NCBI RefSeq assembly: GCF_017355935.1 | Contig: NZ_JAFIQT010000009.1 | Coordinates: forward strand, 1 to 64,000 | Reading direction: 5' to 3' | DNA length: 64,000 bases | DNA from: Telluribacter humicola | GTDB taxonomy: Bacteria; Bacteroidota; Bacteroidia; Cytophagales; Spirosomataceae | Shown: one piece after another, positions 1,915 to 37,978 of the stretch | Position numbering within the stretch: position 1 is the stretch's first letter | Layout: each line of letters starts with the position of its first letter | The notes under the pieces: generated by a model | Database searches by the model: none | Told to the model about the DNA's origin: nothing | The model's input: the letters and a program-made list of their open reading frames with translations, nothing else | Made by a program: the position numbers and the translations under genes

Positions 1915-1951
1915 GGCTCCATTCTCTGGCAGGAGAGGGGAGCCTTTTTTT
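1915..1951 (+). terminator. Hairpin with T-run at the integrase stop codon
   Basis: GGCTCC at 1915-1920 pairs with GGAGCC at 1939-1944, with further pairing inside, and a run of T follows at 1945-1951 on the plus strand. The T-run overlaps the stop codon of the leftward integrase gene. Its polarity is for rightward transcripts, so it may block antisense entry into the integrase rather than end it. Confidence 0.4.
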
Positions 1952-3230
1952 AGGAGGTGGTAGTAATAAGTTGAAAAATTTTTGCTTGCTCCCGAATGGT
2001 TCTTTCGGCTTGCTGATTTAGGTAGTGCTTTTCAGTGATTCCTATGCTGCTATGAGCCATTGCGTACTGGAGGCTCTCTTTGGATAGCCCTTTGTTGACC
2101 ATGAGGGTAGCAAACGTTTTACGGAAGACATGAGAAGTCAGCCTCTTATTGATTCCTATAATTTTGGCTATCTCCTTAATTACTCTATTGTATTGCTGAT
2201 TGGTAGGAACGGGTAGGCAAGTGCCACGAGCTATACAGACTGGGTGATTCTTGTACCGTTCTAAGATCTGCAGAGTAGTATCAATGAGCAGAGTTGCAAA
2301 ATCGTTATGCGTCTTGTACCTACGGGCGAAGATGTATTTCAAGCCATTCTCATTTGTGATAATCTGAGTAGGGGAAAGAATGTATAAATCTGCATAGGAA
2401 AGCCCCGTAAGGCACTGGAATAACACCAAGTCCCTTGTCTCTCGGTAGGTGTCATTCAGGAATTGAGCTTGCTGCAGTCGTTTGATTTCAGCATCATTTA
2501 AGAATAGAACTTCCTTTCGGGTGTGCTTAATACTGATTGACAGAAACGGGTTGTACTCGCACCAATTGTTAGCGATGGCAAAAGCATAGGTGCGTTTACA
2601 GAGTCCATGAAGCTTGCGCACAGTATCAGAGCAAAACCCCATTTGAGTCCTCATGTAATGAATAAAATCCTTGGCTGTGGCATGATTGATCTTTGAGAAT
2701 GCTACCTGTTTGGTACCGAATCGATGCTGTAGGAAAGTCCCAATGTGTTTGACGGAGTTTTCCATTTTATTCACCGTCTTTCGGGTGTATTCCACGTCTT
2801 CAAGATCCTGATACCTTTCAAGCTCTTTCTCTAAGACTTCATAGAATGTAGGGGTATCATCCTTTAGATCACATTCCTTCAAGATCAGACTCATAATTAG
2901 GAATGGGTCAAGCTCTCTTTCAGTAAGTCTGAAATCTGCAACAAAGCTTTCTGCCTTGATACAGGCTAGCTGGATAATAGAAGTTGCTTTTGAATCACCC
3001 TTGACTGTTCGAGTCTTTGCGTCTAAGGCTCCCTTTTTACAGTAAATCTGGAGACTTCTACGGGCTATCTTACTGCCGTGTTTGAGGGTAAGGTATATTA
3101 CAGCCTTATCGTTGCCGGATACTTTATCCGTTCTTTCCATTACAGAGATTCCAAACTTGGAAAGCCTGGACTGGCTTTCCGTAGATAGGACTTCCTGAAT
3201 GAGCTTTGAAAGTTTTCTCCCTTTTCTCAT
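1950..3230 (-). CDS. Tyrosine site-specific recombinase (integrase)
   Basis: A 426-residue tyrosine recombinase that would integrate and excise this element. It has an Arm-type N-terminal region, a SAM-like core-binding domain at about 125-235, and a catalytic domain from about 240. Catalytic positions visible are H367 and R370 in HVFR, H393 in MAHSS and the nucleophile Y403 in KHY. The first catalytic arginine, expected in TGLRxxDL, is replaced by serine (S278 in TGLSYADL); IntDOT-type integrases of Bacteroidota conjugative transposons are known to lack this Arg. The gene overlaps the upstream small HTH gene by 4 bases, so the two are translated together. Confidence 0.92.
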   Translation of the reverse strand: MRKGRKLSKLIQEVLSTESQSRLSKFGISVMERTDKVSGNDKAVIYLTLKHGSKIARRSLQIYCKKGALDAKTRTVKGDSKATSIIQLACIKAESFVADFRLTERELDPFLIMSLILKECDLKDDTPTFYEVLEKELERYQDLEDVEYTRKTVNKMENSVKHIGTFLQHRFGTKQVAFSKINHATAKDFIHYMRTQMGFCSDTVRKLHGLCKRTYAFAIANNWCEYNPFLSISIKHTRKEVLFLNDAEIKRLQQAQFLNDTYRETRDLVLFQCLTGLSYADLYILSPTQIITNENGLKYIFARRYKTHNDFATLLIDTTLQILERYKNHPVCIARGTCLPVPTNQQYNRVIKEIAKIIGINKRLTSHVFRKTFATLMVNKGLSKESLQYAMAHSSIGITEKHYLNQQAERTIREQAKIFQLITTTS

Positions 3231-4401: not shown

Positions 4402-7400
4402 TTATTTTTGCTTTAAATTCAACCTACCAACGATAGCACAGTTATCAAGATAGTATACCCCACTAATTTCAAGTCTTCCAGAATAATCCTTACCAAAAGT
4501 GCTGCCGCCAATTATAAGTTTCTCTCCTAAACATGTCCAAGCTATTTTTAGATTGTGTTCTTGTAGCCAATTTAGGAAGGGCTTCTTTTTGATAAGTAAA
4601 GAGGGCTTGGAACTGTTATATACGTTGGGAGCAAAACATTGGACTTCATTAGCTGTATTGAGGAATTCTCCTTCATTTTGGCTGTACTTTAATCGCATCC
4701 CTTCATATATTAGTTTACTGGGCTTCAAAAAGTATATTGACTCTTCTTTAGACATATCATATTCTTCTCCCCACGAGTAAGCTTGAGAGGTTATATTAAC
4801 TTTTGTAACGAACTTTCCAGACTTTTTATCATGAAGCTCTATCCATTCTGTCCCCATATTGCGTTCATTCATAAAATATTCCTGCGCAGGTGACCAATAG
4901 TACTCCCTACTGAACATCTCGTGTTGTTCATGACTTTCAGGCATCCAACGGCCCATAAAGTCTTGTTTACTAGCCCAATCTTTAAATGCGATGAACTCAC
5001 TATCATTAACAATATAACTCCTTATCTGGCTCCATAGTTCTTTGCGCGGCTGATTCCATTTTTCTTCACCAATTTTTTTGGGCTCCGACCACGATGGATA
5101 AGCTTCCAGTATCAACCATTCTTCGTCGTTATTATCCTTTACTTGAATCAATTCTTCATAACGTGGTAAAATAGTAGAATCTTGAACCCAATCATCGTTT
5201 GAGCTATTCCAATTGAATACTTCGTTGTTATCCCACCAGAAACTCTTAGACTGTTCTTCATCAAGCCTACCTGTTTTATTAATTAGTATTGATGGGTCTA
5301 TGTCTCTAACATATGGGTCCCAGGGACCTTGGTATGGGTTTTCTTCTCTATCGCCCCATCTGTCTTTTTTAATAAAGTTGTCAGATAAAAGTGACATGTA
5401 TTGATGATAGGCTATCCATTGATATTTTTTTCCAATTCTTTCATGAGGGTTGGTGTCCCTATTTCTGCCTGTGCCAATTTCTTTATCAAAAGCAAGATGC
5501 AATTCTGGATTCCACCCAAGATTTATAACTTTAGAGAAAATAAGCCGCTGGGCAACCCTTAAATCGAAATACTCTCCTGTATTTATAATTTTATGATTGT
5601 GATTCAAAAAAGGTTCTATTTCGTTTTCGTATTCCGATAATAACTCTTTTGACAAGGATTGTTTAAAATCAGTTCTGATTTGAGTTAATTGTTCTTCACT
5701 CTTCCGGCCAATAGCAATTTTAAAATCGATTTTTCTATCTACAAGCTTTAATGTTCTACTTGGTTCGTCAGATGTAATTATAGGATCTAAGGCGTTCAGG
5801 AACTGTAATTGGTCGTTGTTTAACTTGTTTTTAAACTTATAATAAAGTTGTTCCCTGTTAATAGGGGTCTCGCCTTTTTTGCAGCCAGACCAATCTGAAA
5901 TGCTATTATTTGTTCCAATGATATATCTGGAAAAATCGCCAAGCCCCATAATCGATTCCCATAAATGCCAGTATTTATCATTATTGTAATTTTCTTCCAA
6001 TTCATCATAAGAAGGAATTTCTTCTGGCCAAGCGCTTTTGTATGGGGGACGAATCTTTGATATTTCAAAACTAAGGTTGATGCCAAGATGATGAGTATAT
6101 TCAATAACACCTCTTGCATAGTCCCTCATTAATATATGTGGAACTACTCCTTGTGGATTATTGAAAATGCTGCTGAAAATATATTCGCTTAAATCAGCTA
6201 AGCTTTCTTTTTGCTGTGTTCTTAATGCACACCCATAGGCTACAGCATAAAGACGTTCACTTATATAAGGATCATTGACATTTTCAAACATTTTTAGAAT
6301 ATCAATCAATATATTCAATCGATATTGTAGTAAACTAACAAGTGCCTTTGTAGAACAGTCCCTGAGCTTTCTGTTAGTGGAAGTATGAAACCATGCTAGG
6401 GTAATCCCAGAAAGCAGTATGGATTGGTCAGATATATGTGATTTGTCTGTATCATTCCAGGCCCAATCAATAAGCCTCTTTACTGATGAATCATCACTAT
6501 ATCTATATTTAAGAAATTGAGTCCAATTCGCATCTCTTTCTGCCAAAGAGAACTTCAATAAATAAGCATGAAGCGAATTCGCATTAAAAAAGTGTCCTGG
6601 AACTCCCGTAATAGCAAGTATCGTTTCCAAAAAGAGCTCATACGTGCCATTATATGAGATTACATATTCATTTACATAATTTTGTGATATTTCATTGATA
6701 GTCTCTATTTTACGCCAAAGTAAGCTCTCAACAAATGATTCTATAATCGGGTACTCATCTTTAAGTTCGGGAATGTGAGCAAAGAATTCTTGACCTGTTT
6801 TCTCAGGAACTTGGATTGAAAAAGCTTCTACTAGCCCTTTATGTATGTACAAAGCATGTTGATCTTTCACATACTTGTATAGTTTACCCCCTTTTTTAAA
6901 AGCTGAGTCTAATTTAGGGCATTGATCAAGTAAATACTGAACAGTTAAGTGATCTTCAAATCGCTGATAAGCCAAATAAACTCCTTCTTCATAATCATTA
7001 TCATTTCTCCAGAAAAGGTTTTTAGATAAAACTCCTTCTGTAATTAGTTCATCAATAAAGCCCTTTCTTGTTATAAACTTTGAGATATTGTTATCAATAA
7101 CTTCGTAAGCTTTTTCATAAGGAATATATTCAAGGTTGTTCTTAATTTTATATTCAATCAAAACGTAAATAGACTTTTCTACTAAGTTCAAGCTAGTGGA
7201 GTATCCAAGCCTATTAGGTTTAGATAAAACGTTATTTACATTCTTGATGAAAAAGTTGTTAATAGAAGTGATTCCTTGAAGTCCATCAGGAATACGTGTT
7301 AAACCTGCTTTATTGATCCCTTCGCAAAATAACTTTAAGAAAAGTGGGTTTTGAAACTCTGGATTTAACAAGGGGACATTGGGTAATTCTATTTTATAAT

Positions 7401-8907
7401 TATCGAAGAATAGTTTGCTTGCTTCATATTCAATATTTTTGAATCCGTAATGGTGATGCTCCACCATACGCAATTCCAATAATTCGTCTTCTGGGAAAAT
7501 ATAATTCTTGTATGAGCTTCTAACAGTTATAACAAGTCCTAACCATTCATATCGTCTTATCTCATTAATAAAGCTCCTTATAAAGCTACTCCAGAAGTAG
7601 TTCCCTCTTCCCTCGTTAATAGCATCAATAAAAAGGATAATTCTCTTTCTTGATTTATCGGCATGTTGATTTAATTTTCTTAGGAAATCTTCAGACTTTG
7701 AATTAATTTGAAGTCTTTTAAATATTTGTGTCCACGGGTCTTCATCTGTGACAAAATGTTGCCCAAGTAGGAAAATACTTTCATATCCCCTATTATTTCT
7801 ACTTGAAACTATATCCCCAATTAAATGGGATTTTCCAATGCCGGCTTCACCGTCTAATAGTAAGAAAGGATTATTAGCTAGATTAAATGTAGAGCCACGT
7901 ATAAAAGTGTTGAAATTTGAAAGCTCATATTTAAACTCTTGAATATTTCTTAGCTCAAGGCCGTATTTGTGATAATATCTATGATCATCCTTTTCTTTAT
8001 GTAGTTTTATTTCTTCTTCTATGTAATAATTACGAATATGTTGAACTGAACTTTCAATATTATTAATTAAATATCTAATTTTATCTACAGGAAGTGTGCT
8101 GGTGCCTAAAAAGTCTGTATTATTGAATAAGTTGTATAGTTCATCAAAGTAGTTCTCCAAGCTCTCAACCCACTCTTTTATGCTAGATTCTTTCTCTAAT
8201 ACTTTTTTTCCCTTTATTAGAAGCATATCAAAAAGGTTTTCTACTTTTATTTTAAATTCTTCAGTTCTTCCAAGTCCTTCGAAGATTTCTGATACCTCCA
8301 GATGTACATTTATTTCTAGTGTATAACGTTTGCCTAAGTCAAATATAGATAGTCTACATTGTTCTAAAAGCCAATTTGTATGTGGATGAAATAATATTTC
8401 AGAGTTAAGATCTTGAACATTTGAGTTGATCAAATCAACTTTACCCTCAATTCTTTCTAGGTCTTTGCCAAGTGTAAAAATTTTAGATTTAAAGTTTTCG
8501 TCTATATACAATAACCTTAGGGTCTTATCTTTATTAACTTTTGAGGTAAAAATATGATAAAACGTTTCTAAATCTTTTGTATTTGGAACAATGATATTAG
8601 GGTTTTTATCTATAATGCTAGCAATAGCATTATAGTCAACATCTGAGTTTTTGAAAATGATGAATTTATTTAGCTCATCAAATAGTGATTGTGAGTAATA
8701 GAAGGGGAACTTGTTGTTGTAGCTTGCAATTGGTCTAATATTTTGATATTCCTTAATTGTTTCATAAATAATATCAGTAAGTCTGTTTGCATATTTCTCT
8801 GATGGAAATAAAAACTTTTTGATTCTACCGTACCCTTCGTCTTTGATGAACTGATCAACGAATTTGAGAGAAACGTATGTTATTATAGTAATTAATACTG
8901 GATCCAT
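4402..8907 (-). CDS. STAND (NACHT-like) NTPase, putative anti-phage sensor
   Basis: A 1501-residue protein with STAND architecture. Walker A is GEAGIGKS near residues 353-360, Walker B is IILFIDAINEG near 420-430, a sensor stretch LGLVITVRSSY follows, and NPLFLKLFCEG fits the helical domain after the NTPase core. The N-terminal 150 residues (start MDPVLITIITYVSLKF, later KFPFYYSQ) resemble the unassigned N-terminal region of other bacterial STAND ATPases, with no recognisable nuclease motif. The C-terminal 800 residues look mostly helical, possibly HEAT- or TPR-like, then become Trp-rich. Such proteins (for example the Avs group) detect phage proteins and trigger an effector. It is AT-rich and sits alone as cargo between element genes and host chromosome. 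Assignment to STAND is firm; a defence role is inferred. Confidence 0.8.
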   Translation of the reverse strand: MDPVLITIITYVSLKFVDQFIKDEGYGRIKKFLFPSEKYANRLTDIIYETIKEYQNIRPIASYNNKFPFYYSQSLFDELNKFIIFKNSDVDYNAIASIIDKNPNIIVPNTKDLETFYHIFTSKVNKDKTLRLLYIDENFKSKIFTLGKDLERIEGKVDLINSNVQDLNSEILFHPHTNWLLEQCRLSIFDLGKRYTLEINVHLEVSEIFEGLGRTEEFKIKVENLFDMLLIKGKKVLEKESSIKEWVESLENYFDELYNLFNNTDFLGTSTLPVDKIRYLINNIESSVQHIRNYYIEEEIKLHKEKDDHRYYHKYGLELRNIQEFKYELSNFNTFIRGSTFNLANNPFLLLDGEAGIGKSHLIGDIVSSRNNRGYESIFLLGQHFVTDEDPWTQIFKRLQINSKSEDFLRKLNQHADKSRKRIILFIDAINEGRGNYFWSSFIRSFINEIRRYEWLGLVITVRSSYKNYIFPEDELLELRMVEHHHYGFKNIEYEASKLFFDNYKIELPNVPLLNPEFQNPLFLKLFCEGINKAGLTRIPDGLQGITSINNFFIKNVNNVLSKPNRLGYSTSLNLVEKSIYVLIEYKIKNNLEYIPYEKAYEVIDNNISKFITRKGFIDELITEGVLSKNLFWRNDNDYEEGVYLAYQRFEDHLTVQYLLDQCPKLDSAFKKGGKLYKYVKDQHALYIHKGLVEAFSIQVPEKTGQEFFAHIPELKDEYPIIESFVESLLWRKIETINEISQNYVNEYVISYNGTYELFLETILAITGVPGHFFNANSLHAYLLKFSLAERDANWTQFLKYRYSDDSSVKRLIDWAWNDTDKSHISDQSILLSGITLAWFHTSTNRKLRDCSTKALVSLLQYRLNILIDILKMFENVNDPYISERLYAVAYGCALRTQQKESLADLSEYIFSSIFNNPQGVVPHILMRDYARGVIEYTHHLGINLSFEISKIRPPYKSAWPEEIPSYDELEENYNNDKYWHLWESIMGLGDFSRYIIGTNNSISDWSGCKKGETPINREQLYYKFKNKLNNDQLQFLNALDPIITSDEPSRTLKLVDRKIDFKIAIGRKSEEQLTQIRTDFKQSLSKELLSEYENEIEPFLNHNHKIINTGEYFDLRVAQRLIFSKVINLGWNPELHLAFDKEIGTGRNRDTNPHERIGKKYQWIAYHQYMSLLSDNFIKKDRWGDREENPYQGPWDPYVRDIDPSILINKTGRLDEEQSKSFWWDNNEVFNWNSSNDDWVQDSTILPRYEELIQVKDNNDEEWLILEAYPSWSEPKKIGEEKWNQPRKELWSQIRSYIVNDSEFIAFKDWASKQDFMGRWMPESHEQHEMFSREYYWSPAQEYFMNERNMGTEWIELHDKKSGKFVTKVNITSQAYSWGEEYDMSKEESIYFLKPSKLIYEGMRLKYSQNEGEFLNTANEVQCFAPNVYNSSKPSLLIKKKPFLNWLQEHNLKIAWTCLGEKLIIGGSTFGKDYSGRLEISGVYYLDNCAIVGRLNLKQK

Positions 8908-10602: not shown

Positions 10603-10842
10603 CTACTATTAGCTGAAGTCATGATTAACTTCAACCATAAATAAGCAATCAATCCCCCTTACTAAGAGCCACTCTCTGCAAGTAGATTTTGAGACATACG
10701 ACCTTAAAATTTTTGATTTAAGATTAACACTTTTCCAGGTGAGCAGCCTTGGGCTGGAATAGGTATCCGTTGGCTTGCAATGCAGTACCTAGTCACTTTC
10801 TGTTCCTGAGGCATATTAATGTTTTGCCTGTACGTATACACT

Positions 10843-11778
10843 ATGATAAAGAAGATATCAGTTTTCGCCTTATTCGTTACCATTTTCACTGGCCTGGCAG
10901 GCGGTGTAGTACCTATAACGGCCTATGCGGCAGAAGGCTCCACTATTGACAACAAGACCCTCCGGGTAGAGCACGATGAGCAGGCGGGTACCATATCTGT
11001 TTTTCGGGCCGGGGATAAAGTGCCGATCCTGACGCAGAATGCCAGGGAGGATACGCGACCGTATATTCACCCGATTGTGGCTCCTGATGAAAAAGGCCTG
11101 CTGACAGAATACCGACCCAAACATCACCTGCACCAGACTGGGCTATACTGGGGCCTTAAACTGGTCAATGGCCGCGACTATTTTATGAACTGGCAGGGCA
11201 ACTACTGGCGCCGCGTGTCGGCTACGGTACTCAATAAAAAGGGGCAGGAGGTGAAATGGCAAACCGTGTATGACCTGATTGATGAAAAGGGAGCCATTAT
11301 CCTGACCGAAACCCAGAACTGGACCATGCAGGAGCAGGACGGGAAGTACCTGCTGGACCTGGAATGGAAGGGGAATGCCCACGTAGATATCAATCTGGGC
11401 AAGTTCTACGTCGGGGGCTTGTTTATCCGGATGCCTTGGAAACCGGGGGACAAGGGCGAGGTAGTCAATGCGGTGGGACAAAAAGATAAGGAGGCGGAGG
11501 GGCAACGCGCTATCTGGACGGATGTAGGCATTCAGGTGGAGGGACGTAATGATCTGGCCCACATCGCTATCTTCGATCACCCCGATAACCGCGCTTTCCC
11601 TACTCCCTGGCGTGTAGATAATGAATTGGGTGTAGGTCCATCTGTACAAATCCTGGGCGACTGGAAGATACCAAAAGAACAAACCGAGACAATCCGCTAC
11701 CGACTGGTTGTCTACACCGGAGACCTGAAGGATGCCGGACTGACCCAACAATGGAAAGAGTTTGTCCGGGCGTATTAA
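10843..11778 (+). CDS. Secreted DUF6807 (PmoA-like) protein
   Basis: About 311 residues from the ATG at 10843, chosen because it begins a clean signal peptide (MIKKISVFALFVTIF, ending near AYA); an ATG 24 bases upstream would add a poor leader. The mature part matches the DUF6807 family, formerly labelled methane oxygenase PmoA in databases, with the typical IHPIVAPDEKG, HHLHQTGLYWG and YFMNWQGNYWRR blocks. Despite that label there is no reason to assume methane chemistry: relatives occur next to carbohydrate-oxidation genes. It is followed after 56 bases by the quinoprotein fusion gene, so the two probably form one transcript. Confidence 0.75.
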   Translation: MIKKISVFALFVTIFTGLAGGVVPITAYAAEGSTIDNKTLRVEHDEQAGTISVFRAGDKVPILTQNAREDTRPYIHPIVAPDEKGLLTEYRPKHHLHQTGLYWGLKLVNGRDYFMNWQGNYWRRVSATVLNKKGQEVKWQTVYDLIDEKGAIILTETQNWTMQEQDGKYLLDLEWKGNAHVDINLGKFYVGGLFIRMPWKPGDKGEVVNAVGQKDKEAEGQRAIWTDVGIQVEGRNDLAHIAIFDHPDNRAFPTPWRVDNELGVGPSVQILGDWKIPKEQTETIRYRLVVYTGDLKDAGLTQQWKEFVRAY

Positions 11779-11834: not shown

Positions 11835-14669
11835 ATGAAACCAGTTTCGTACCTCTTCCTGCTCCTTCCTTTTCTGTACCTGTATACCCCTAAGGCTCCT
11901 GAGCGTACATCCGGTGCTATAAGATTAGATAGTATTCCTAAAAGCGGTCAGAAGGACAAGTACGACAACTTTATGGACTGGGCCATCTACCGCGGGGATA
12001 AAAAAGCCAATCAGTATGCCGAGCTGGCGCAGATTAATGCTACGAATGTGCACCAGCTGGAGAAGGCCTGGGAGTACCATACCGGCGATCCGAAGGGACC
12101 CTCTATGTACAGCAACCCCATTATTGTCAATGGTCTTATGTACTTCACCACTCCTAAGCTACATGCTGTAGCCCTAAACGCGGTGACGGGGAAGCAGGTG
12201 TGGGTATTCGATCCAGCCCGATACAGTGAGGACAAAAAAGACTTCCGTGGGCGTAGCCGCGGCGTTACCTACTGGGAAGATGCTACAGGTGGAAAGCAGC
12301 GAATATTCAACTTTGTGAAGGACCGGGTGTATGCGCTGGACGCCAAAACGGGGGCTCTGATCGAATCATTTGGGGAGAAGGGCTATATTGATCTGCGTAA
12401 GAACCTGCCTGTTGATCCGGCCACGGCCGCTATCGAGGTCACTACGCCCGGCATCGTGTACAAGAATTTTCTGATCGTTGGCTCGCGGGTACCCGAAGGA
12501 GAAGATTCAACCCCGGGGGACATTCGGGCCTACGATACCGAAACCGGAGAATTTAAATGGATCTTCCATACCATACCACAGAAGGGTGAGTTTGGCTATG
12601 ACACCTGGAAGCGGGTGGAGGGCGTGACCTACGGCGGGGCTAACCCCTGGGGCGGCTTTTCGCTGGATGAAGAAAGAGGATGGGTTTTTTGTGCTACCGG
12701 ATCAGCGGCCGCCGACTTTATCTACGGGGGAGACCGCAAAGGAGCCAACTTGTTTAGTAACTGTGTACTGGCCCTGGATGCGACTACCGGCGAGCGCAAG
12801 TGGCACTACCAAACCATCCACCACGATATTTTTGACTACGACAATCCTCCGGCTCCCATGCTGACGACCATCAGCTCCAAAGGCAAGACCCGGGACGCAG
12901 TGGTTCAGTTTACCAAGATGGGCCTCACGTTCGTCTTGGATCGCGACACGGGAGAACCCATTTTTCCGGTGGTAGAGATGCCCGTACCACCCTCGGATGT
13001 ACCGGGCGAGGAAGCCTGGCCTACCCAGCCATTCCCCCTGAAGCCAGCACCCCTCAACCGATTGATACTAACGGAGGCTGACCTGACTAATATCACTCCT
13101 GAATCCCGCGCCTCGGCCCTCAAGCAGTTCAGAAAGTATAAAACCGGATTTCTGTATACACCCGCTTCTCAGCAGGGTACTATCACCCTCCCTGGACATC
13201 AGGGTGGCATGGAGTGGGGGGGAGGCTCCTATGACCCGTACACCAACCGGTTGTACATTAATGTCAATGAAGCGCCTACTATCAATCAACTGGTACCTTA
13301 TCAGGAAAGTGAGAATATGGCTAAGGCTACGCCGGGGGAGCGTGGTGCTGTGATCTATAATAAGAACTGCACGTCCTGTCACGGAGCTAATCGTCAGGGA
13401 AATCTGCCGGCTTTTCCTCCGCTCACCCAAATCAAGCTCAACAACGAGCAGATTCGTACTGTGCTCCACGCAGGGCGTGGTATGATGCCGGCATTCCCTC
13501 AGTTTAGCGATGCGCAGGTAAATGATCTGGTGGCTTTTCTGAAGACCCGACCTGGCGAAATAAAGCTGAAAGAAGTGGTCGGCGGGCGGACACGCTATGC
13601 CAATGAGGCTCCCTTCTTTGTGGACCCTTACGGAGTTCCGGCCATTGCGCCGCCCTGGGGTACGCTCAATGCCATTGACCTCGCTACGGGTGATATTCTG
13701 TGGAAGGTACCTCTGGGCGAATATCCGGAGCTGGTAGCCAAAGGCATTCGCAATACCGGATCAAAAAACTTTGGCGGACCCGTGGCCACGGCCGGAGACG
13801 TCGTATTCATAGCCGGTACTCCTGATGAGAAGATCCGGGCATTTAGTTCGCATACGGGCGAAGTACTTTGGGAGTACCAGTTGCCCGCGGGTGGCTACGC
13901 TACCCCAAGCGTGTACATGATCGACGGCAAACAGTATGTAGTGATAGCCGCCGGTGGTGGAGGTAAGAATGGCACCAAGTACGGCGATTCTATTATAGCC
14001 TTCGCTCTGCCAGAGTCGGATGGCAAGCAGCAGCCGAAACCCAAAAAGGCGGAAACAGGCTGGATTGATCTCTTCGATGGCTCTACCCTAAACGGATGGG
14101 TTCAGCTCAACGGTACCCATACCTTTGCTGTGGAAGACGGAGCCATCGTAGGGCGAACGAAGGAGGGTAGCCCCAATTCGTTTCTAGGTACCCGGCAAAA
14201 ATTCAGTGATTTTGAGCTAGAGCTGGACGTTATGGTCGATAGCGTGACCAACTCAGGTATCCAGATCAGGACTAGAGTCAAACCCGTAACGGCAGGAAAA
14301 GGGCATGATCAGCGGGCTGGAAGAGTATACGGTCCACAGGTAGAAATGCAGCGAAACCATCGTCCCGGTACCCCCACTACGGGACTCATATACGGAGAAG
14401 CGTTAGGAACGGGCTGGCTCTCTTCGCCGGAAAAGATACAGAACGGCCACCACTACCTGAATAATGAAGGCTGGAACAGGTTACGCATCGTGGCCAAAGG
14501 CCCGCGTATACAAACCTGGCTGAATGGCCAACCCACAGAAGACCTAACCAATGAGGCCGTTTATAAAACCAATCCCGAAGGCTTTATCGGCCTGCAGATG
14601 CACGGTATAGATGGCAAAGGCCCCTACTTGATGAAGTGGAAGAATATCAGGATTCGGGAGTTAAAGTAG
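11835..14669 (+). CDS. Fusion: PQQ-type dehydrogenase, cytochrome c, 3-keto-disaccharide hydrolase
   Basis: A 944-residue exported protein in three parts. Residues about 45-500 are PQQ dehydrogenase propeller repeats (ALNAVTGKQVWVFD, YDTETGEFKWIF, LDATTGERKWHY). A cytochrome c domain with CTSCH at 512-516 is inserted before the last blades (LDLATGDILWKVPLG type, about 620-715). From about residue 740 to the end comes a DUF1080 (PF06439) domain, starting DLFDGSTLNGW, the family named 3-keto-disaccharide hydrolase. Quinoprotein plus inserted cytochrome is a known layout; adding DUF1080 couples sugar oxidation and cleavage in one chain, if the domains act as their families do. The protein would act in the periplasm, passing electrons to the respiratory chain. 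Length and frame are intact. Confidence 0.85.
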   Translation: MKPVSYLFLLLPFLYLYTPKAPERTSGAIRLDSIPKSGQKDKYDNFMDWAIYRGDKKANQYAELAQINATNVHQLEKAWEYHTGDPKGPSMYSNPIIVNGLMYFTTPKLHAVALNAVTGKQVWVFDPARYSEDKKDFRGRSRGVTYWEDATGGKQRIFNFVKDRVYALDAKTGALIESFGEKGYIDLRKNLPVDPATAAIEVTTPGIVYKNFLIVGSRVPEGEDSTPGDIRAYDTETGEFKWIFHTIPQKGEFGYDTWKRVEGVTYGGANPWGGFSLDEERGWVFCATGSAAADFIYGGDRKGANLFSNCVLALDATTGERKWHYQTIHHDIFDYDNPPAPMLTTISSKGKTRDAVVQFTKMGLTFVLDRDTGEPIFPVVEMPVPPSDVPGEEAWPTQPFPLKPAPLNRLILTEADLTNITPESRASALKQFRKYKTGFLYTPASQQGTITLPGHQGGMEWGGGSYDPYTNRLYINVNEAPTINQLVPYQESENMAKATPGERGAVIYNKNCTSCHGANRQGNLPAFPPLTQIKLNNEQIRTVLHAGRGMMPAFPQFSDAQVNDLVAFLKTRPGEIKLKEVVGGRTRYANEAPFFVDPYGVPAIAPPWGTLNAIDLATGDILWKVPLGEYPELVAKGIRNTGSKNFGGPVATAGDVVFIAGTPDEKIRAFSSHTGEVLWEYQLPAGGYATPSVYMIDGKQYVVIAAGGGGKNGTKYGDSIIAFALPESDGKQQPKPKKAETGWIDLFDGSTLNGWVQLNGTHTFAVEDGAIVGRTKEGSPNSFLGTRQKFSDFELELDVMVDSVTNSGIQIRTRVKPVTAGKGHDQRAGRVYGPQVEMQRNHRPGTPTTGLIYGEALGTGWLSSPEKIQNGHHYLNNEGWNRLRIVAKGPRIQTWLNGQPTEDLTNEAVYKTNPEGFIGLQMHGIDGKGPYLMKWKNIRIRELK

Positions 14670-17689: not shown

Positions 17690-19855
17690 TTATTTTACAC
17701 TCAGATGGACGCTTTTACCCAGGTACACTCCCTGGGGCAGGTCGACGATGAATAAGGTGCTGTTCTGCTTCTCATCCACAAGGGTACGGAAGTGCTCTCC
17801 CTGAACATTATAAACACCACTTACAGACAAGAGCATGCGGCTCAATTTTCTGGATGGATCGGCCAGGGTCAGTTCGCTCAGCCGTCCTCCCTCTATCTTC
17901 AGCATGGCCATCCCGGGGCTATCCAGCCTGATCTGTACGTCTTTGTCGATTTCTACGGATCCGGCCTTGTAGAAGGCCAACTGGGTGATCCCTAACTGGC
18001 CCTGTTTCACAGCCTGTAAGGCGGAGGTATTGGAGAGTATTTCAATGGAGCGATTGTGCTGGCTGGTTTGGTTCAGCTGCTCCTCCGTTACGTTAGGTAC
18101 CACGATGTACTGGTAGGACGCTCCGTTCGGCTTGCTGCCGTGGTCAAACCACAGGGCAAATACTTCTTCGCTTACCGGTTTAGAGCTTATATTTTTCTGG
18201 TCTGTAATGGCCGACCAACTGCCCGTTTCCGTCTGATTGGAGAGGTTGATGGTAGTAGGTTGGGGGAAGAGGTAGCCGATGTTATTGTGGTGTACCCACT
18301 TCACCTTCTGGAGCGGGCGGCTTCCTTTCTGAACACTTTGCCGGTTACCATCCTGCATCATGCGTACATCACTCCGTATCAGTACCTGGTCGAGCGTAGT
18401 GGCTACCGGCAGGGCAGACATGGATTTGATATCAGTACCGAGACAGACGTACTCTTCGTCAAAGAAGAACCATGACTTTTTAGCTTCGAGCGGGTCGTGC
18501 GGGCTCTTAAAATCAAAGACAACGGCTCCGTACAATCCATCGGTTACCGCACCTACAAAGTCGGTCAGCCCTTCTTTCTGAATGGCATCAGGGGCGGGTA
18601 ACTCCGGCTTCTGCACAATAGTTGTTCCTGAAATCTTCTGCCAGTTGTACACGGGCCAGATGTTGTGGTACTCATCGCCTTTCAGCATAAGGTAGTTGGT
18701 ACCATCGGCCCGGTGGTGGGTGAGTTTTCCGGGCCCGTTGTAGGGCTCTTCCATGTTCCGGTTGCGGGTCGAAAACATACGGACGGTGGTGTAGAAACGG
18801 GGGCGCTGGAAAACGAAATGTTCGGTTTGCCAGAAGAATTTTGCGAAGGACGCCGAGGGGGGGACTTCGCCTTTGCGCAACCGGATGATCTCTTCCAGCT
18901 CACTTTTACGGTAGTCAGTACTCACCAGCAACCGCTCTATTTCCAGCGTACTATGCGGCTTAAAAGTAGCCTGATTGGAGATACTGCGGTTTTTAACACT
19001 GATGTCTTCGTACACCCCGTACACCATCTGCTTATAGATCCCGTCGAGGTAGTAGTCCACCAGTTGGTTTATTTTCTCTTTGGAGAAAGCATAGCGGGTA
19101 TCTGCCACATAGTAGGACCAGTTCCCGAAGGCATTGGCATACTTACCATAGCCGTATGACGAGGTATTGTTCACGCGGTCCACCCGGTGGTGAAAGCTAT
19201 AATCGTGTTGCATACCCCGCTGTCCCGTTGCAAACTTTAGCTCTCCTTCAATGATTTTTATTACCTCATCAAATTGCTGATTGTCGCCCAGAAAAAGCAG
19301 GTTTTTAGCCAGAATCCCCGCGATCACAATCCGGTCGCCACTGGGCCGCGCCCCCGAGGCATTCATATTGGCCCGGCCAATGATGGGCTGGGCTTTAGCC
19401 ACAAGGTCTTTAGGTAGTTCGTCACCCATGATCAGCATCAGGTCCCCCAGATCGGTGGGGGTTGTGATCTGATTATCATGCCAGTTGTCTCCAAAGAAAT
19501 CGTGCTGGACCCAGTAGGACAGCCCCTGCTCAATACGGGTCTTCAGTAGCTTGCTCCGGTAGTATCGGGACTTTTTGGCTTTATAGGCCTTGGCCATGTA
19601 TACAAGATCGCGTGTGTGGGCTCTGTGCGGAAATCCGGCTGTTCGGCTTAGATCCTCATAGTTGATACCCACGAAGCTACCATCCTTGTTCATTCTGGCT
19701 AATATAGCCTCCACTGCACTGTCGCTGGGTATTGTTGACATCAGGTCAGTTACAACCCGCTCCTTTATTGTTTTTATATCATTCTGTGCCAGACAGAATG
19801 AAGTCAGCAGGGTAAGGCTCAGTGCCATGAAGAGGCATCTCAGTTGGGACATCAT
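17690..19855 (-). CDS. Polysaccharide lyase family 8-type protein
   Basis: A 721-residue secreted protein with a signal peptide (cleavage likely after CLAQ at residue 24). The N-terminal alpha/alpha-toroid carries PL8 hallmarks: NWHDNQI at 124-130 with the conserved Asn, MQHDYSFHHR at 215-224, and SYGYGKYA at 233-240 with the candidate catalytic Tyr. The C-terminal half is the beta super-sandwich. PL8 enzymes cleave hyaluronate, chondroitin or xanthan by beta-elimination. The usual HQH around the catalytic His reads HHR here with shifted spacing to the Tyr, so substrate cannot be predicted. No SusCD pair is adjacent on this strand. Confidence 0.8.
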   Translation of the reverse strand: MMSQLRCLFMALSLTLLTSFCLAQNDIKTIKERVVTDLMSTIPSDSAVEAILARMNKDGSFVGINYEDLSRTAGFPHRAHTRDLVYMAKAYKAKKSRYYRSKLLKTRIEQGLSYWVQHDFFGDNWHDNQITTPTDLGDLMLIMGDELPKDLVAKAQPIIGRANMNASGARPSGDRIVIAGILAKNLLFLGDNQQFDEVIKIIEGELKFATGQRGMQHDYSFHHRVDRVNNTSSYGYGKYANAFGNWSYYVADTRYAFSKEKINQLVDYYLDGIYKQMVYGVYEDISVKNRSISNQATFKPHSTLEIERLLVSTDYRKSELEEIIRLRKGEVPPSASFAKFFWQTEHFVFQRPRFYTTVRMFSTRNRNMEEPYNGPGKLTHHRADGTNYLMLKGDEYHNIWPVYNWQKISGTTIVQKPELPAPDAIQKEGLTDFVGAVTDGLYGAVVFDFKSPHDPLEAKKSWFFFDEEYVCLGTDIKSMSALPVATTLDQVLIRSDVRMMQDGNRQSVQKGSRPLQKVKWVHHNNIGYLFPQPTTINLSNQTETGSWSAITDQKNISSKPVSEEVFALWFDHGSKPNGASYQYIVVPNVTEEQLNQTSQHNRSIEILSNTSALQAVKQGQLGITQLAFYKAGSVEIDKDVQIRLDSPGMAMLKIEGGRLSELTLADPSRKLSRMLLSVSGVYNVQGEHFRTLVDEKQNSTLFIVDLPQGVYLGKSVHLSVK

Positions 19856-20024
19856 AGGAAAGTAAGTTTACGTACCTTGGGTTTAGCTATCTTAACAAAG
19901 TAGCTGTCCACCAATTTCTATTGACAGGGCGGGCAAAAAGGCTTGTAGAGCCGACCGGAAAGCACAGGTGCCAGAGGTATTTTATTTAAAAGTTCCTGCT
20001 TTTGCTCTTCCAGTTCCCTAAATA

Positions 20025-20060
20025 GAAAAAGCCTCAGAATGAATATTCTGAGGCTTTTTC
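20025..20060 (-). terminator. 16-bp stem terminator after the ThuA-like gene
   Basis: GAAAAAGCCTCAGAAT at 20025-20040 pairs perfectly with 20045-20060 around a GAAT loop, with A/T runs on both sides, so it works in either direction. It ends the leftward transcript of the ThuA-like gene and separates it from the PL8 gene. Confidence 0.75.
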
Positions 20061-20079
20061 TAATCAATATTTTATTAAA

Positions 20080-21018
20080 TCACTGCAACGAGCCGCCCAT
20101 CCAGCGGGCAGCGTTGGTAATAATCTGTAGGGGCCACTTCTCTTTGTATACCGGGTAGAGCTCATGGCCGGGGCGGAAGTAAAAGACTTGTCCCTTGCCT
20201 AATCGCCAGAGCATACCGCTGCGAAACCATTCGCCGGTCTCCCAGCGCTCTTCCAGCACTATCTCATCCGGCTCGGGTACATGAAAAGGTTCGTTGTACA
20301 TTTCGGTCTGAGGCACCTGAAACTGCTGAGGTACCCCTTTGGCAATGGGATGCTGTGGCTTGAGGATCTGAATGGTACTAGGCTTGCCATCACCCCGGTA
20401 GGCCGGAAAGCAGCAGTTTGGCAGATGTACATCCACCTTTACAGTTCTGTCCGGAAATTTGCGGGAGGCGGTATAGGGGGTGAGGCGGGTGTCATATTTA
20501 GGCATGATGTACTTCTGCGCGGGAGCAATGATCTTAAACTCTATCTGACTCTCGTTCGAAGCCTGATATGATTTCCGGGCATCCTGGATGGTACGCTCAT
20601 ACATAGCCTCTACAAACGGAGTAGACCAGTGTGAAGCATGCAGAGCGATCAGGGCTGTTTTACCGGCCAGTACCTGTTCTACTATCCGGCGTCCCGTTTC
20701 GGGTTTTATTTCGCCGTGTCTGACGTGCCCCCACCAGATCAGTACATCGCAGTTGTCAAGTACCTCAGCAGATAGTCCCTGCTCAGGATCATCCAGGGCA
20801 ACGGATCGTACCGAGAAGCCCGACTGCGTTTTGAAATGGTCGGCCAGATGGTTGCCTATGTAGTTGTCGTAGGCTTTTTTCTGATCGGGCTGGCGCTCAT
20901 CCCACACTACCACCCGGATGCCCTTTGTGGGAGAGGCCGTGAGCATACCATCAGGTACCAGGGTGACAGCCGTAGCCAGGGTAACATTTTTAATAAATTT
21001 TCTTCGGTTTGTGTGCAT
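20080..21018 (-). CDS. ThuA-like (trehalose utilisation) domain protein, Tat-exported
   Basis: This 312-residue protein begins NRRKFIKNVTLATAV, a twin-arginine signal. The body is a ThuA-like class I glutamine-amidotransferase-fold domain: RVVVWDERQPDQKKAY, CDVLIWWGHVRHGEI, ALIALHASHWSTPF and the late GKGQVFYFRPGHELYP are typical family blocks. ThuA proteins accompany sugar-oxidation and 3-keto-sugar loci, though their exact reaction is poorly defined. It follows DUF3237 by 106 bases on the same strand and may belong to that transcript. The catalytic role here is unknown. Confidence 0.85.
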   Translation of the reverse strand: MHTNRRKFIKNVTLATAVTLVPDGMLTASPTKGIRVVVWDERQPDQKKAYDNYIGNHLADHFKTQSGFSVRSVALDDPEQGLSAEVLDNCDVLIWWGHVRHGEIKPETGRRIVEQVLAGKTALIALHASHWSTPFVEAMYERTIQDARKSYQASNESQIEFKIIAPAQKYIMPKYDTRLTPYTASRKFPDRTVKVDVHLPNCCFPAYRGDGKPSTIQILKPQHPIAKGVPQQFQVPQTEMYNEPFHVPEPDEIVLEERWETGEWFRSGMLWRLGKGQVFYFRPGHELYPVYKEKWPLQIITNAARWMGGSLQ

Positions 21019-28640: not shown

Positions 28641-31358
28641 ATGTTCAACAAGAATTCATCCGCCAGTACGACTGCCATTAAGTCCATGCTGGGCCTGGGA
28701 GTCGTTTTGATACTGGGCGCTTCCTATACCCAGATCAACAAAACGGAGCCAGCCCACACAGGCATCGATAACCCGAAGGTGGAGAAGCTCAAGCTCCAGC
28801 CCGGCTTTAAGGCTGAGCATTTGTACAGCCCATCTGAGAATCAGCAGGGGTCGTGGGTATCTATGGCTTTTGATGACAAGGGCCGCATGATCGTATCTGA
28901 TCAATACGGAGCCTTGTATCGCCTCAAAGTACCGGCAATGGGCTCCGGTTCTACCAAGCCGGAAGTGGAGAAGCTAAAGATCGGCAACGCCACTGATACG
29001 CTGGGTATGGGTACGGCACAGGGCCTCCTGTACGCATTCAATAGCCTGTATGTAGTAGTAAACAACCGCGTTACCGAGACGCTGCCACGCACCAGTGGTC
29101 TCTATCGCCTGCAGGATACCGACGGCGACGACCAGTTTGATAAGGTAACCATGCTGAAAGAGCTGGTTGGTAACGGTGAGCACGGCCCGCACAGCATTAT
29201 TCTGTCACCTGATAAAAAATCATTGTATGTCATAGCGGGTAACCATACCGATATACCCCCGATGGACTGGTACCGTCTGCCCAAAAACTGGTCAGAGGAT
29301 AACCTCTTTCCACTTATCAAAGACCCCCGCGGCCACGCCAACGACCGTATGGCTCCGGGTGGCTGGATCGCTAACGTTGACCCTGAGGGAAAGCGCTGGG
29401 AGCTGATCAGTGCGGGCTACCGCAACGCCTTTGATATGGCCTTTGATGCAAACGGCGACTTATTTGTATACGACGCGGATATGGAGTGGGACTTCGGGAT
29501 GCCCTGGTACCGCCCAACCCGTATTGTACATGCTACCAGTGCCAGTGAGTTTGGCTGGCGGACCGGTAACAGCAAGTGGTCGGCTGCTTATCCCGATAAC
29601 CTGCCTCCCGTGCTGAACATCGGACAAGGCTCCCCTACGAACCTGCTGCATACCCGCGACGCCAAGTTTCCGGCCAAATACAAAAATGCGCTGCTAGCCT
29701 TTGACTGGAGCTTTGGTATTGTACATACTATTCTGCTGAAGCCTTCCGGCTCTACCTTTACAGCCGACCACGAAGAGTTCCTGTCGGGTATACCACTACC
29801 GCTTACCGATGGTGTAATCGGACCGGATGGTGCCCTGTACTTCCTGACCGGAGGCCGCCGTCTGGAGTCAGATCTGTACCGGGTTTATTATGATGGTAAA
29901 GAGCCTCTGAACAGTACAGTAGCCGCGCCACCAATCAATCAGGCCAACGAACTACGCAGAAGCCTTGAGAAATTCCATACCGGCGGACCTAACAAGGATG
30001 CCATCGCAACTGCCTGGCCTCACCTCAACAACCCCGACCGCTTCATCCGCTATGCGGCGCGTCTGGCGGTTGAGCACCAGCCGTTAGCTGAGTGGCAGGC
30101 AAAAGCTCTGGCCGAAAAAGATCCTGTTCGCCTTACCAATGCTATGATTGCCCTGTCGCGTCAGGGATCACCTGAGCAGAAAGGCGCTATGCTGAAAGCA
30201 TTAACCTCTATCAACTATGCAGCACTTTCGGAGCAGCAGCAGATCGAGTTGCTGCGCGCTTTTGAACTGACATTTGCCCGTATGGGGCAGCCCGATGCCG
30301 CTACCAAGTCGCAGGTAATCGCTTACCTGAACCCTAAGTATCCGGCTAAGTCTAATGAGCTGAATCGTCTGTTCGCTAAGGTACTGGTATTTGTGGAGGC
30401 TCCCGGAGTAATACCTAAGACACTGGCCCTGCTGGAAGCGAAGGAGCAGCCCGGTGCTGCCACGGCTGGCGGCGAAACTGCTACTTCATCCGCCGAACTG
30501 ATCATGCGTAACCCGCAGTATGGACTGGATATTGCCGGTATGCTTGAGAAGATGCCACCGGCTCAGCAGACCTACCTGGCTACCGCGCTCAGCAAGGCCA
30601 AGACAGGCTGGACACCTGAACTGCATGACCGCTACTTTAAGTGGTTCCGTAAGGCATTCAGCTACCAGGGAGGACGCAGCTACATCGGATTTATTGATAA
30701 AGCCCGTAAGATGGCCCTCCAGAACGTGTCTGAATCCAGAATGGCTCATTACGATAAGCTATCGGGTGGTGATCTGCTAACTCAGAACGGAAACGATCTG
30801 GCTAAGGCGGTATATCCTAAAGGTCCCGGCCGCAGATGGGCACTGGATGAAGCCGTCACCGCGGTAGATGGTAAGCTGACCAACCGTAATTTTGCCCAGG
30901 GTAAGGCCATGTACAACGCCATTACCTGTAGCCGCTGCCATGCGATCGGGGGTGAAGGTGGAAACATCGGACCTGAGCTGTCTCAGTTGGCTACCCGCTT
31001 CTCTACCAAAGATGTACTGGAGGCCATCATTGATCCGCACAAAGCTGTTTCGGATCAGTATGCCGCTACGCAACTAACACTGAAAAATGGAGAGTCCATA
31101 GTAGGGCGCGTCACCAACGAAGATAAAGTTAACTACTTCGTGTCGCAAAATCCATTTGCACCGGATATGCTCTTGAAAGTACCTAAGAAAGACGTAGTTT
31201 CAAGCAAGTATTCGGCCGTTTCGATCATGCTTCCCGGCCTGATCAACAGTCTGAACGAAGAAGAGCTGAAAGACCTGATGGCCTACCTGATGGCCGGAGG
31301 AAACGAAAAGCACCCTTCTTTCTCAGCTTCGGCTGCCAAGAGTACTGGAGGAAAATAA
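28641..31358 (+). CDS. Secreted propeller-HEAT-cytochrome c dehydrogenase-like protein
   Basis: The 905 residues begin with a signal or anchor helix (about 14-32). Residues about 50-430 form a glucose/sorbosone dehydrogenase-like propeller (HGPHSIILSPDKKSLYVIAG, GYRNAFDMAFDANGDLFVYD, PLPLTDGVIGPDGALYFLTG). About 430-700 are HEAT-like helices. A cytochrome c domain follows with CSRCH at 763-767 and the block GNIGPELSQLATRF ... IIDPHKAVSDQY, which is the heme-binding domain pattern first described in Pirellula and Verrucomicrobium proteins (TIGR02603/02604). It probably oxidises a sugar in the periplasm. Located between SusCD and the DUF1080 gene. Confidence 0.85.
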   Translation: MFNKNSSASTTAIKSMLGLGVVLILGASYTQINKTEPAHTGIDNPKVEKLKLQPGFKAEHLYSPSENQQGSWVSMAFDDKGRMIVSDQYGALYRLKVPAMGSGSTKPEVEKLKIGNATDTLGMGTAQGLLYAFNSLYVVVNNRVTETLPRTSGLYRLQDTDGDDQFDKVTMLKELVGNGEHGPHSIILSPDKKSLYVIAGNHTDIPPMDWYRLPKNWSEDNLFPLIKDPRGHANDRMAPGGWIANVDPEGKRWELISAGYRNAFDMAFDANGDLFVYDADMEWDFGMPWYRPTRIVHATSASEFGWRTGNSKWSAAYPDNLPPVLNIGQGSPTNLLHTRDAKFPAKYKNALLAFDWSFGIVHTILLKPSGSTFTADHEEFLSGIPLPLTDGVIGPDGALYFLTGGRRLESDLYRVYYDGKEPLNSTVAAPPINQANELRRSLEKFHTGGPNKDAIATAWPHLNNPDRFIRYAARLAVEHQPLAEWQAKALAEKDPVRLTNAMIALSRQGSPEQKGAMLKALTSINYAALSEQQQIELLRAFELTFARMGQPDAATKSQVIAYLNPKYPAKSNELNRLFAKVLVFVEAPGVIPKTLALLEAKEQPGAATAGGETATSSAELIMRNPQYGLDIAGMLEKMPPAQQTYLATALSKAKTGWTPELHDRYFKWFRKAFSYQGGRSYIGFIDKARKMALQNVSESRMAHYDKLSGGDLLTQNGNDLAKAVYPKGPGRRWALDEAVTAVDGKLTNRNFAQGKAMYNAITCSRCHAIGGEGGNIGPELSQLATRFSTKDVLEAIIDPHKAVSDQYAATQLTLKNGESIVGRVTNEDKVNYFVSQNPFAPDMLLKVPKKDVVSSKYSAVSIMLPGLINSLNEEELKDLMAYLMAGGNEKHPSFSASAAKSTGGK

Positions 31359-31371
31359 ATAAGCTTACCAG

Positions 31372-31406: not shown

Positions 31407-31454
31407 ATTAAGCTCTGCTGCACATCAGTCCACCTGTTAACTACTGCTACTATA

Positions 31455-37962: not shown

Positions 37963-37978
37963 GGATAAGCCTATAAGC

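Follow-up and report, generated by a model that had tools for sequence, protein, structure and literature searches.

What would a single protein do with a PQQ propeller, a cytochrome c inserted into it, and a C-terminal DUF1080 domain, whose family is known to cleave oxidized sugars? This question is raised by a gene at 11835–14669 of the window, the whole 64,000-nucleotide stretch of DNA analyzed here (all coordinates within this gene refer to the + strand). The joining of PQQ and DUF1080 parts is rare, recurs in several phyla, and sometimes lies beside sugar-degrading genes, which suggests a sugar enzyme that would oxidize its substrate and then cleave it.

Overall organization of the fusion protein

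The reading frame runs uninterrupted from ATG to stop and encodes 944 residues. An earlier note on this DNA had placed a propeller, a CTSCH cytochrome and a DUF1080 domain in one frame, and this is borne out by the ORF and by the Pfam search that the note had proposed, in which PF01011, Cytochrome_CBB3, PQQ_2 and PF06439 all match the protein. The AF2 model of the full chain is confident (pLDDT 87.1, pTM 0.89). The N-terminus (MKPVSYLFLLLPFLYLY, 11835–11885) is hydrophobic and, by eye, resembles a signal peptide; the protein is thus probably exported and would be soluble in the periplasm. Some of the flavobacterial fusions, also judged by eye, appear to be lipoproteins.

The propeller is built from two stretches. 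Its N-terminal part (residues 49–501, 11979–13337) matches PF01011 with an E-value of 1.9e-193, and its C-terminal part (about residues 570–728, 13542–14018) contains a PQQ_2 match (residues 609–705, E 3.1e-20) as well as a second PF01011 stretch (13587–13940). The PF01011 score of 644.9 bits lies far above the curated cut-off of 26.7. The closest curated subfamily is TIGR03074 (glucose/quinate/shikimate dehydrogenase), for which the whole fusion protein scores below the cut-off (492.9 vs 832.65 bits). The propeller fold aligns with PQQ alcohol dehydrogenases at a VIA Z of 36–37, and it shares both this fold and the aligned site residues with the TIGR03074 subfamily and with the quinohemoprotein alcohol dehydrogenases 1yiq and 1kb0. 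The latter two also carry heme c in the same chain; however, judging from the order of the aligned stretches, the heme domain follows the propeller in 1yiq and 1kb0 but sits within it in the fusion, which has the DUF1080 domain in addition.

Five candidate PQQ/metal-site residues, aligned to 1kb0 and 1yiq, are present in 16 of 16 fusions: R142 (12258–12260), E221, D334 and D336 of the motif D334-Y-D336 (12834–12842), and K361 (12915–12917). We take the Asp of 1kb0 that aligns with D334 to be the catalytic base and D336 to be the second Asp. K361, which aligns with a Lys of 1kb0, is presumably a PQQ contact, and the PQQ/metal-site roles of all five, that of R142 from knowledge of the family, are likewise our assumption.

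The inserted cytochrome c (residues 502–569, 13338–13541; Cytochrome_CBB3, E 1.4e-14; PF13442 above cut-off) contains both the CxxCH heme motif, as CTSCH at residues 512–516 (13368–13382), and a candidate sixth ligand, M551 (13485–13487), assigned from its motif. The heme residues are retained in 15 of the 16 fusions, the exception being L106, a fused PQQ–DUF1080 member that lacks the cytochrome. The domain is also found in all five unfused relatives checked by Pfam (L205, L036, L060, L208 and L209), so that the cytochrome described in the earlier note is present but is not peculiar to the fusion.

The DUF1080 domain

An unconserved linker (residues 729–741, 14019–14057), with 0–15% identity across 11 relatives (L095–L105) and a pLDDT of about 69 in the block 731–740, leads into the DUF1080 domain (3keto-disac_hyd, PF06439, residues 742–941, 14058–14657). 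The Pfam match is complete (profile positions 1–187 of 187, E 2.1e-39, 135.9 bits vs a cut-off of 26.8), and the AF2 model of the domain is again confident (pLDDT 94.9, pTM 0.91). It belongs to the BT3469/4jqt-N subtype: BT3469 of Bacteroides thetaiotaomicron (4jqt) is its closest solved relative (37–39% identity, Z 28.4), a protein of 431 residues with two DUF1080 domains in tandem, crystallized as a chain without a dehydrogenase. The Pfam family and fold are also shared, at Z 19–20, with BT2157 (3osd) and with the 3-keto-glycoside eliminase/hydratases and 3-keto-2-hydroxy-glucal hydratases 8rr2 (Z 19.5), 9fbe (Z 20.3), 8tda and 8v31. PDB titles among these solved relatives name a 3-keto-glycoside eliminase/hydratase and bound 3-keto-glucose or 2-hydroxy-3-keto-glucal.

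Ten candidate active-site residues (N806, R812, Q835, E837, Y853, E855, W880, N881, Q921 and H923; 14250–14603) show no substitution in any of the 16 fusions. N806, W880, N881, Q921 and H923 are common to QDHG-type (BT2157-type) rows, and among 148 diverse DUF1080 rows, which include some genes entered twice, they are retained in 134, 144, 122, 144 and 123, respectively. At positions 835, 837 and 922 the fusion carries Q/E/M, whereas 15 of 15 QDHG rows and the BT2157 sequence itself (3osd) carry E/Q/D; this marker set is our own rather than a published definition, the 15 rows were chosen by D922 and H923, and 8rr2, 9fbe, 8tda and 8v31 were compared by fold. The earlier note had held that a domain lacking the conserved residues of active members would speak against its reading. 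Since all positions invariant across its alignment of 38 sequences are retained in the fusion, no such loss is seen within its own subtype, although it does differ from the BT2157 subtype.

Distribution and evolution of the fusion

Seeded scans and samples found 19 separate genomes, from Bacteroidota, Verrucomicrobiota and Acidobacteriota, that encode PQQ and DUF1080 in a single ORF, and we therefore reject a chance frame or an assembly error as the origin of the fusion. The genome scan contributed 15 of these among the 80 loci it kept (L094 is cut by a contig end, and L106 is the member without the cytochrome), and three further flavobacterial genomes carry the fusion, each with the cytochrome. 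A search of 288 Verrucomicrobiota genomes, with at most seven candidates scored in each, returned no further fusion, the single genome having it being the chosen centre; a long frame from this phylum (L194) encodes a PQQ protein of 733 aa that has no DUF1080 domain.

In the DUF1080 tree, all 16 domains from fusions fall into a single clade with support of 100/100. The Telluribacter trio and the group of nine seen in that tree reappear in a PQQ tree built by a quick method, so that two of the three main groups agree, and the two parts are inherited jointly. Between the window and L093, dN/dS is 0.021 for PQQ_N and DUF1080 alike; both domains are under equal purifying selection. The fusion is thus a conserved, constrained unit, found partly in carbohydrate contexts. 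Mobile spread is unsupported, as none of 72,556 plasmid records has a single place covering 80% of the protein. Within the bacterial family of the host, PQQ-cytochrome dehydrogenases are present in 143 of 150 genomes (best E ≤1e-160), and 148 of the 150 contain some match to the fusion protein.

Gene neighborhood and split versions

A gene for a DUF6807 protein (PF14100, E 5.3e-46; 319 aa; 10819–11778, + strand) ends 56 bp before the fusion begins, in the same orientation, and co-transcription of the two is likely. Relatives of the DUF6807 gene adjoin the fusion in L093 (89% identical) and an unfused sister PQQ dehydrogenase in G320 (58%). In the latter, which holds the nearest unfused relative, a DUF1080x2 gene, a DUF6807 gene and the PQQ dehydrogenase gene follow one another in the same orientation, separated by about 30 and 60 bp, and these separate genes are predicted to form one operon. 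Other arrangements occur: in G198 the PQQ dehydrogenase is followed 0.7 kb on by DUF1080x2, with a Gfo/Idh gene as well, and the C17 paralogue of the host has a divergent DUF1080 gene with an AP_endonuc_2 TIM barrel 18 bp past its end. The C23 paralogue has no DUF1080 in 16 kb.

All seven flavobacterial fusions have a ThuA-domain gene of one family within 1.4 kb, with an AraC-type gene in between in five and the ThuA gene directly upstream of the fusion in two (13 and 18 bp). Sulfatases are found near the fusion in G1275 and G1349, the latter also with an alpha-L-fucosidase, and a Gfo/Idh gene lies upstream of the fusion in L104. Among the 12 non-flavobacterial fusions, several of them on short contigs, TIM-barrel, Gfo/Idh, ThuA and DUF6807 seeds gave matches in just three, those of the window, L093 and L104; L098 has a TIM-barrel match below cut-off.

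Near unfused PQQ dehydrogenases, DUF1080 was found in 4 of 40 loci (L211–L250, one per genus, about ±6 kb with fewer bases at some contig ends, the PQQ gene being called in 39) vs 0 of 20 control windows 80–100 kb distant on the same contigs. A set of 57 PQQ dehydrogenase loci with 1.5 kb flanks, which includes the two host paralogues and a few loci that are one gene twice, has DUF1080 in six, five of them from one genus. A count of 4/40 vs 0/20 is too weak to claim a general link between these genes, and our argument therefore draws solely on the clade of fusions, the unfused relative closest to it, and the operons named above.

A proposed mechanism and its alternatives

In our judgment the most likely reading, held with about even confidence, is that the fusion is an exported glycosidase that oxidizes and then cleaves. 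A secondary hydroxyl of the substrate, most likely that at C3 of a glycoside or of the end of an oligosaccharide, would be oxidized by the PQQ propeller, and the two electrons would travel through the protein's own heme c to the respiratory chain. On the resulting keto-glycoside the DUF1080 domain would act by beta-elimination, perhaps combined with hydration, and so open the glycosidic bond, and the fusion would serve to set the labile keto intermediate beside the domain that receives and cleaves it. The leftover 2-hydroxy-3-keto-glucal could be hydrated by another DUF1080 protein of the host, whose genome has 26 DUF1080 matches. Full-length domains with confident models, solved relatives titled as 3-keto-glycoside enzymes, a single clade, equal dN/dS, invariant residues, split versions, the flavobacterial neighbors and the Gfo/Idh gene of L104 all suggest this reading. 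Against it, most unfused PQQ dehydrogenases are without a nearby DUF1080, the non-flavobacterial fusions are mostly without such neighbors, the closest curated subfamily is of the glucose/quinate type, and PqqC was found in none of the genomes searched for it. The interpretation of the earlier note is supported in part: its reading of the domains is correct and the fusion is conserved. A subtype other than that of BT2157 and the occurrence of DUF1080 on sulfatases and a GDPD speak against it. More tentatively, and somewhat short of even confidence, we propose a redox glycosidase in a single chain, which would have arisen from one joining of a PQQ/heme dehydrogenase to a DUF1080 lyase and is now present in three phyla. 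It would open glycosidic bonds by combining quinone-driven oxidation with beta-elimination, without NAD or Koshland hydrolysis, using scavenged PQQ and sending electrons into respiration, and in some marine flavobacteria it would belong to loci for sulfated, fucose-containing glycans.

The alternative that survives best, unlikely as we consider it, is that DUF1080 serves as a carbohydrate-binding module and keeps a PQQ sugar dehydrogenase of the ordinary kind on a glycan, with oxidation at C1 or another hydroxyl and no cleavage. Glucose dehydrogenases oxidize C1, and the PQQ domain is closest to the glucose/quinate subfamily, albeit below its cut-off. DUF1080 strongly resembles the CBM66 fold (Z 18.3 over 156 residues, rmsd 2.2), and it is elsewhere fused to sulfatases, a GDPD and ThuA, so it may just bind sugar. 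According to PMC5673643, assignments to DUF1080 and to CBM66 overlap. A binding role fits less well with G320, where DUF1080 is encoded separately in the same predicted operon and therefore could not tether the dehydrogenase, nor with the ten invariant polar or aromatic residues and a purifying selection on DUF1080 equal to that on the dehydrogenase.

We regard as rather improbable a reversed order of events, in which DUF1080 is a GH16-like hydrolase of the kind claimed for Thermogutta THTE_1561. It would release a reducing sugar first, and the PQQ domain would then oxidize this sugar at C1. GH16 enzymes do align to the domain at Z ~15, a PL8 lyase is encoded 3 kb downstream of the fusion on the opposite strand, and PMC9007349 and PMC10881899 report endo-xanthanase/lichenase activity for one DUF1080 protein. 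However, both relatives with a bound sugar named in the PDB title are 3-keto-glycoside enzymes, and some of the neighbors are ThuA, Gfo/Idh and TIM-barrel genes.

The supply of PQQ bears on the remaining alternative. A profile search found PqqC in neither the host genome nor 18 other genomes, with 6 of 56 alphaproteobacteria matching as a control; three PqqE matches all fell below cut-off, and since that model reaches its cut-off in no control genome, PqqC alone was used. PQQ would therefore have to be scavenged. That the propeller is instead an empty quinoprotein or purely structural, leaving a role for DUF1080 and heme alone, would agree with the missing PqqC and a weak match to the empty-quinoprotein family TIGR04528, but is very improbable given that this match is far under cut-off (235 vs 650 bits), that the five PQQ/metal-site residues are invariant, and that other bacteria are known to scavenge PQQ.

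Comparison with known systems

If the oxidize-then-cleave reading is true, glycan breakdown would be coupled directly to respiration with no need for NAD, and a function would be suggested for the PQQ-cytochrome dehydrogenases so common in the bacterial family of the host. The fusion also offers a compact protein on which to test this, with natural variants that are fused, split, or without heme. The Caulobacter lactose 3-dehydrogenase LacABC is, to our knowledge, not a PQQ propeller. PMC9007349 proposes that LacABC oxidizes in the periplasm and that the DUF1080 protein CCNA_01705 then cleaves the 3-keto sugar, in agreement with the statement of the earlier note that the 3-keto route uses separate dehydrogenase and DUF1080 proteins. 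The same proposed chemistry would here reside in one chain, and the non-hydrolytic 3-keto route would thus gain a one-protein, PQQ-driven form. A cluster elsewhere in the window (28641–37962), which differs from the fusion in that its genes are separate and its propeller part matches weakly (TIGR02604, below cut-off), places a PVC-type CxxCH heme protein (TIGR02603, over cut-off) directly upstream of a DUF1080 gene, together with TIM-barrel and Gfo/Idh genes.

Architecture of the fusion protein

The frame at 11835-14669 on the forward strand is open throughout and encodes a 944-residue protein, exactly as the earlier note placed it, and a Pfam search recovers all three parts that the note had assigned to one polypeptide: a PQQ propeller (PF01011; residues 49-501) with a second segment at residues 609-705, an inserted c-type cytochrome (residues 502-569), and a C-terminal DUF1080 domain (PF06439; residues 742-941) covering the whole profile. 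The top NCBIfam subfamily is TIGR03074, the membrane PQQ dehydrogenases of the glucose/quinate/shikimate family, although the score of 492.9 falls below the curated cut-off of 832.65. AlphaFold2 models have a pLDDT of 87.1 and pTM of 0.89 for the whole fusion, and 94.9 and 0.91 for the isolated DUF1080 domain. In structure alignments the propeller matches PQQ alcohol dehydrogenases at Z 36-37. The cytochrome insertion is a common trait, and Pfam detects it in all five unfused relatives checked.

The fused DUF1080 domain aligns structurally with BT3469 (4jqt; Z 28.4) and with 3-keto-glycoside eliminase/hydratases (9fbe, Z 20.3; 8rr2, Z 19.5), and also with CBM66 (Z 18.3). In an alignment of 148 diverse DUF1080 rows, some genes being included twice, all 148 have G808; W880 and Q921 are conserved in 144 each, N897 in 140, N806 in 134, H923 in 123 and N881 in 122. 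At positions 835, 837 and 922 the 15 rows of the QDHG subtype, selected by D922 and H923, have E, Q and D, whereas the fusions have Q, E and V, I or M; BT2157 (3osd) sides with the QDHG rows. In the tandem proteins L207 and 4jqt the second domain is of the QDHG type and the first is more like that of the fusion, and there are perhaps two complementary subtypes, eliminase and hydratase. Telluribacter's 6.56-Mb genome holds 26 PF06439 matches, 25 of them over the cut-off, and two of its proteins have two DUF1080 domains each.

Distribution of the architecture

A DUF1080-domain scan of 84,980 species genomes returned 459 relatives, and in 15 of the best 80 a PQQ propeller shares the ORF. These are Telluribacter, one Persicitalea MAG (whose ORF ends at the contig edge), one Bacteroidia MAG, five Opitutales/Opitutaceae, four Flavobacteriaceae, two Bryobacterales and one further Verrucomicrobiota. 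Among these best 80 of 459, every match with a DUF1080 identity of at least 56% is fused and none of the rest (at most 54%) is joined to a PQQ propeller; outside them, two verrucomicrobial stand-alone domains reach 57%. The architecture is thus recurrent, and sampling shows it to be rare: among the matches listed, it occurs in 3 of the 150 genomes sampled from the window's family, in 1 of 395 from Bacteroidota (the window's own genome), in 4 of 299 from Flavobacteriaceae, one of them the genome chosen as centre, and, with the chosen centre itself as the single case, in 1 of 288 from Verrucomicrobiota and 1 of 247 from Acidobacteriota. The three new flavobacterial fusions all contain the cytochrome. 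With the window counted, the fusion is found in at least 19 genomes, a lower bound since two short patterns served as seeds for the scan, of whose 459 matches the best 80 were used.

Evidence for a single fusion event with both halves kept

The 16 fused domains form a single clade in a 58-row DUF1080 tree (support 100/100). In an 87-row PQQ tree, built by a quick method, the fused rows group together with one unfused row, from genome G320, beside the Telluribacter group, and two changes of the fused/unfused label are needed, such as one fusion and one loss. Both trees contain the Telluribacter trio and a group of nine (L096-L103, L106). The remaining four loci (L095, L104, L105 and L149) cluster as a clade in the PQQ tree only. 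Over the 11 rows L095-L105 (L106 and L149 left out), the PQQ core is 60-67% and DUF1080 57-64% identical to the window, with 31-40% in the cytochrome and 0-15% in the linker. Comparison of the window with the close relative's fusion (L093) gives a dN/dS of 0.021 for both PQQ_N and DUF1080, 0.017 for PQQ_C and 0.056 for the cytochrome. Heme residues are present in 15 of 16 fusions, and L106:4048-6600 is a natural 851-residue fusion wholly lacking the cytochrome domain, so that the heme seems to be the dispensable part.

Proposed activity and cofactor supply

We give roughly an even chance to a reading in which the PQQ domain would oxidise a secondary hydroxyl on the ring of a glycoside, probably the one at C3, electrons would pass to heme c, and DUF1080 would cleave the resulting keto-glycoside. 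Quinate dehydrogenases oxidise a ring secondary alcohol. Alongside them, a quinone-dependent enzyme reported to act on deoxynivalenol C3 (PMC10146952) shows that the PQQ family can reach such alcohols; the entries for the deoxynivalenol enzyme, 7wmd and 7wmk, are among the structure matches of the propeller.

Fusion partners of DUF1080 are varied: it also occurs attached to sulfatase (L143, L155), ThuA (L128) and GDPD (L142) domains, as a module widely shared among fusions. Because of these joinings it may instead serve as a sugar-binding module, a reading we consider less likely; N806, R812, Q835, E837, Y853, E855, W880, N881, Q921 and H923, its candidate residues, are invariant in 16 of 16 fusions. 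Hydrolysis first, followed by oxidation at C1, strikes us as improbable. An empty propeller is very improbable, and the candidate PQQ-site residues R142, E221, D334, D336 and K361 are likewise invariant in all 16.

PqqC is a PQQ-synthesis enzyme. A profile search did not find it in the window's genome or in 18 others (15 with the fusion; many of them MAGs), and the search works, since 6 of 56 alphaproteobacterial genomes score above the cut-off of the model. This points to PQQ, if used by the fusion enzyme, probably being scavenged.

Each domain is already known; what appears to be new is the conserved fusion, read as a putative redox-plus-cleavage enzyme. In the literature searched, no paper pairs 'pyrroloquinoline quinone' with DUF1080, and an earlier mention in 2024 work on the 3-keto pathway is possible.

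Neighbours of fused and separate forms

Three protein families are associated with 3-keto-sugar metabolism: ThuA, Gfo/Idh and the xylose-isomerase-like TIM barrels. A DUF6807 gene lies 56 bp upstream of the window fusion on the same strand. In G320, DUF1080x2, DUF6807 and PQQ-dehydrogenase genes follow in succession on one strand with short gaps; the dehydrogenase is unfused and sister to the Telluribacter group, and identity to the window is 58% for DUF6807 and 62% for the PQQ protein but only 39% for DUF1080. From this gene row, Telluribacter's one chain seems to be made there as separate proteins. In another genome with an unfused dehydrogenase (G198), genes for a tandem DUF1080 protein and for Gfo/Idh follow 0.7 kb on, same strand. 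The C17 paralogue in the window's genome has a divergently oriented DUF1080 neighbour, and 18 bp beyond the paralogue's end comes an AP_endonuc_2 TIM-barrel gene. Such an association does not extend to PQQ dehydrogenases in general: of 40 unfused loci, each from a different genus, 4 have a DUF1080 gene no more than 6 kb away, compared with 0 of 20 control windows, and none occurs in 16 kb around the C23 paralogue in the window's genome.

A ThuA-domain gene of one family lies within 1.4 kb of all seven flavobacterial fusions (L097, L099, L100, L102, L277, L278, L279). Five of these genes are divergent, and an AraC-type gene separates them from the fusion (assigned by Pfam for L097 and by similarity for the others). 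The other two, in flavobacterial genomes G1275 and G1349, end 13 and 18 bp ahead of the fusion; sulfatases are near in both, with an alpha-L-fucosidase also in G1349. At the other 12 fusions, none of them flavobacterial and several on short contigs, TIM-barrel, Gfo/Idh, ThuA and DUF6807 seeds matched only at the window, L093 and L104. LacABC and DUF1080 are linked to 3-keto-sugar metabolism in PMC9007349. At L098:1657-6618, tandem PQQ dehydrogenases, the second bearing DUF1080, have a below-cut-off TIM-barrel match ahead of them. Downstream of the window fusion, on the opposite strand, lie a PL8 polysaccharide lyase and a ThuA-domain gene (17690-21018).

Other features of the window

A second possible 3-keto-sugar cluster occupies 28641-43320 on the forward strand, with a PVC-type heme CxxCH protein (TIGR02603, over cut-off), a stand-alone DUF1080 gene 96 bp after it, two AP_endonuc_2 TIM barrels, a DUF4432 protein and a Gfo/Idh gene, followed by a sugar-ABC-transporter-like set recognised by eye. 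On the reverse strand, 4402-8907 encodes a 1501-residue protein with a 1568-bit match to PADLOC Avs2; together with integrase-like (1950-3230) and primase-like (604-1875) genes nearby, both recognised by eye, it may make up a defence island carried by an integrated element. Sets of cytochrome/DUF1549-DUF1553 and DUF1501 genes are associated with Planctomycetes. By eye, two successive pairs of genes resembling these lie at 45809-53473 on the forward strand, and a further cytochrome-like gene at 53567.
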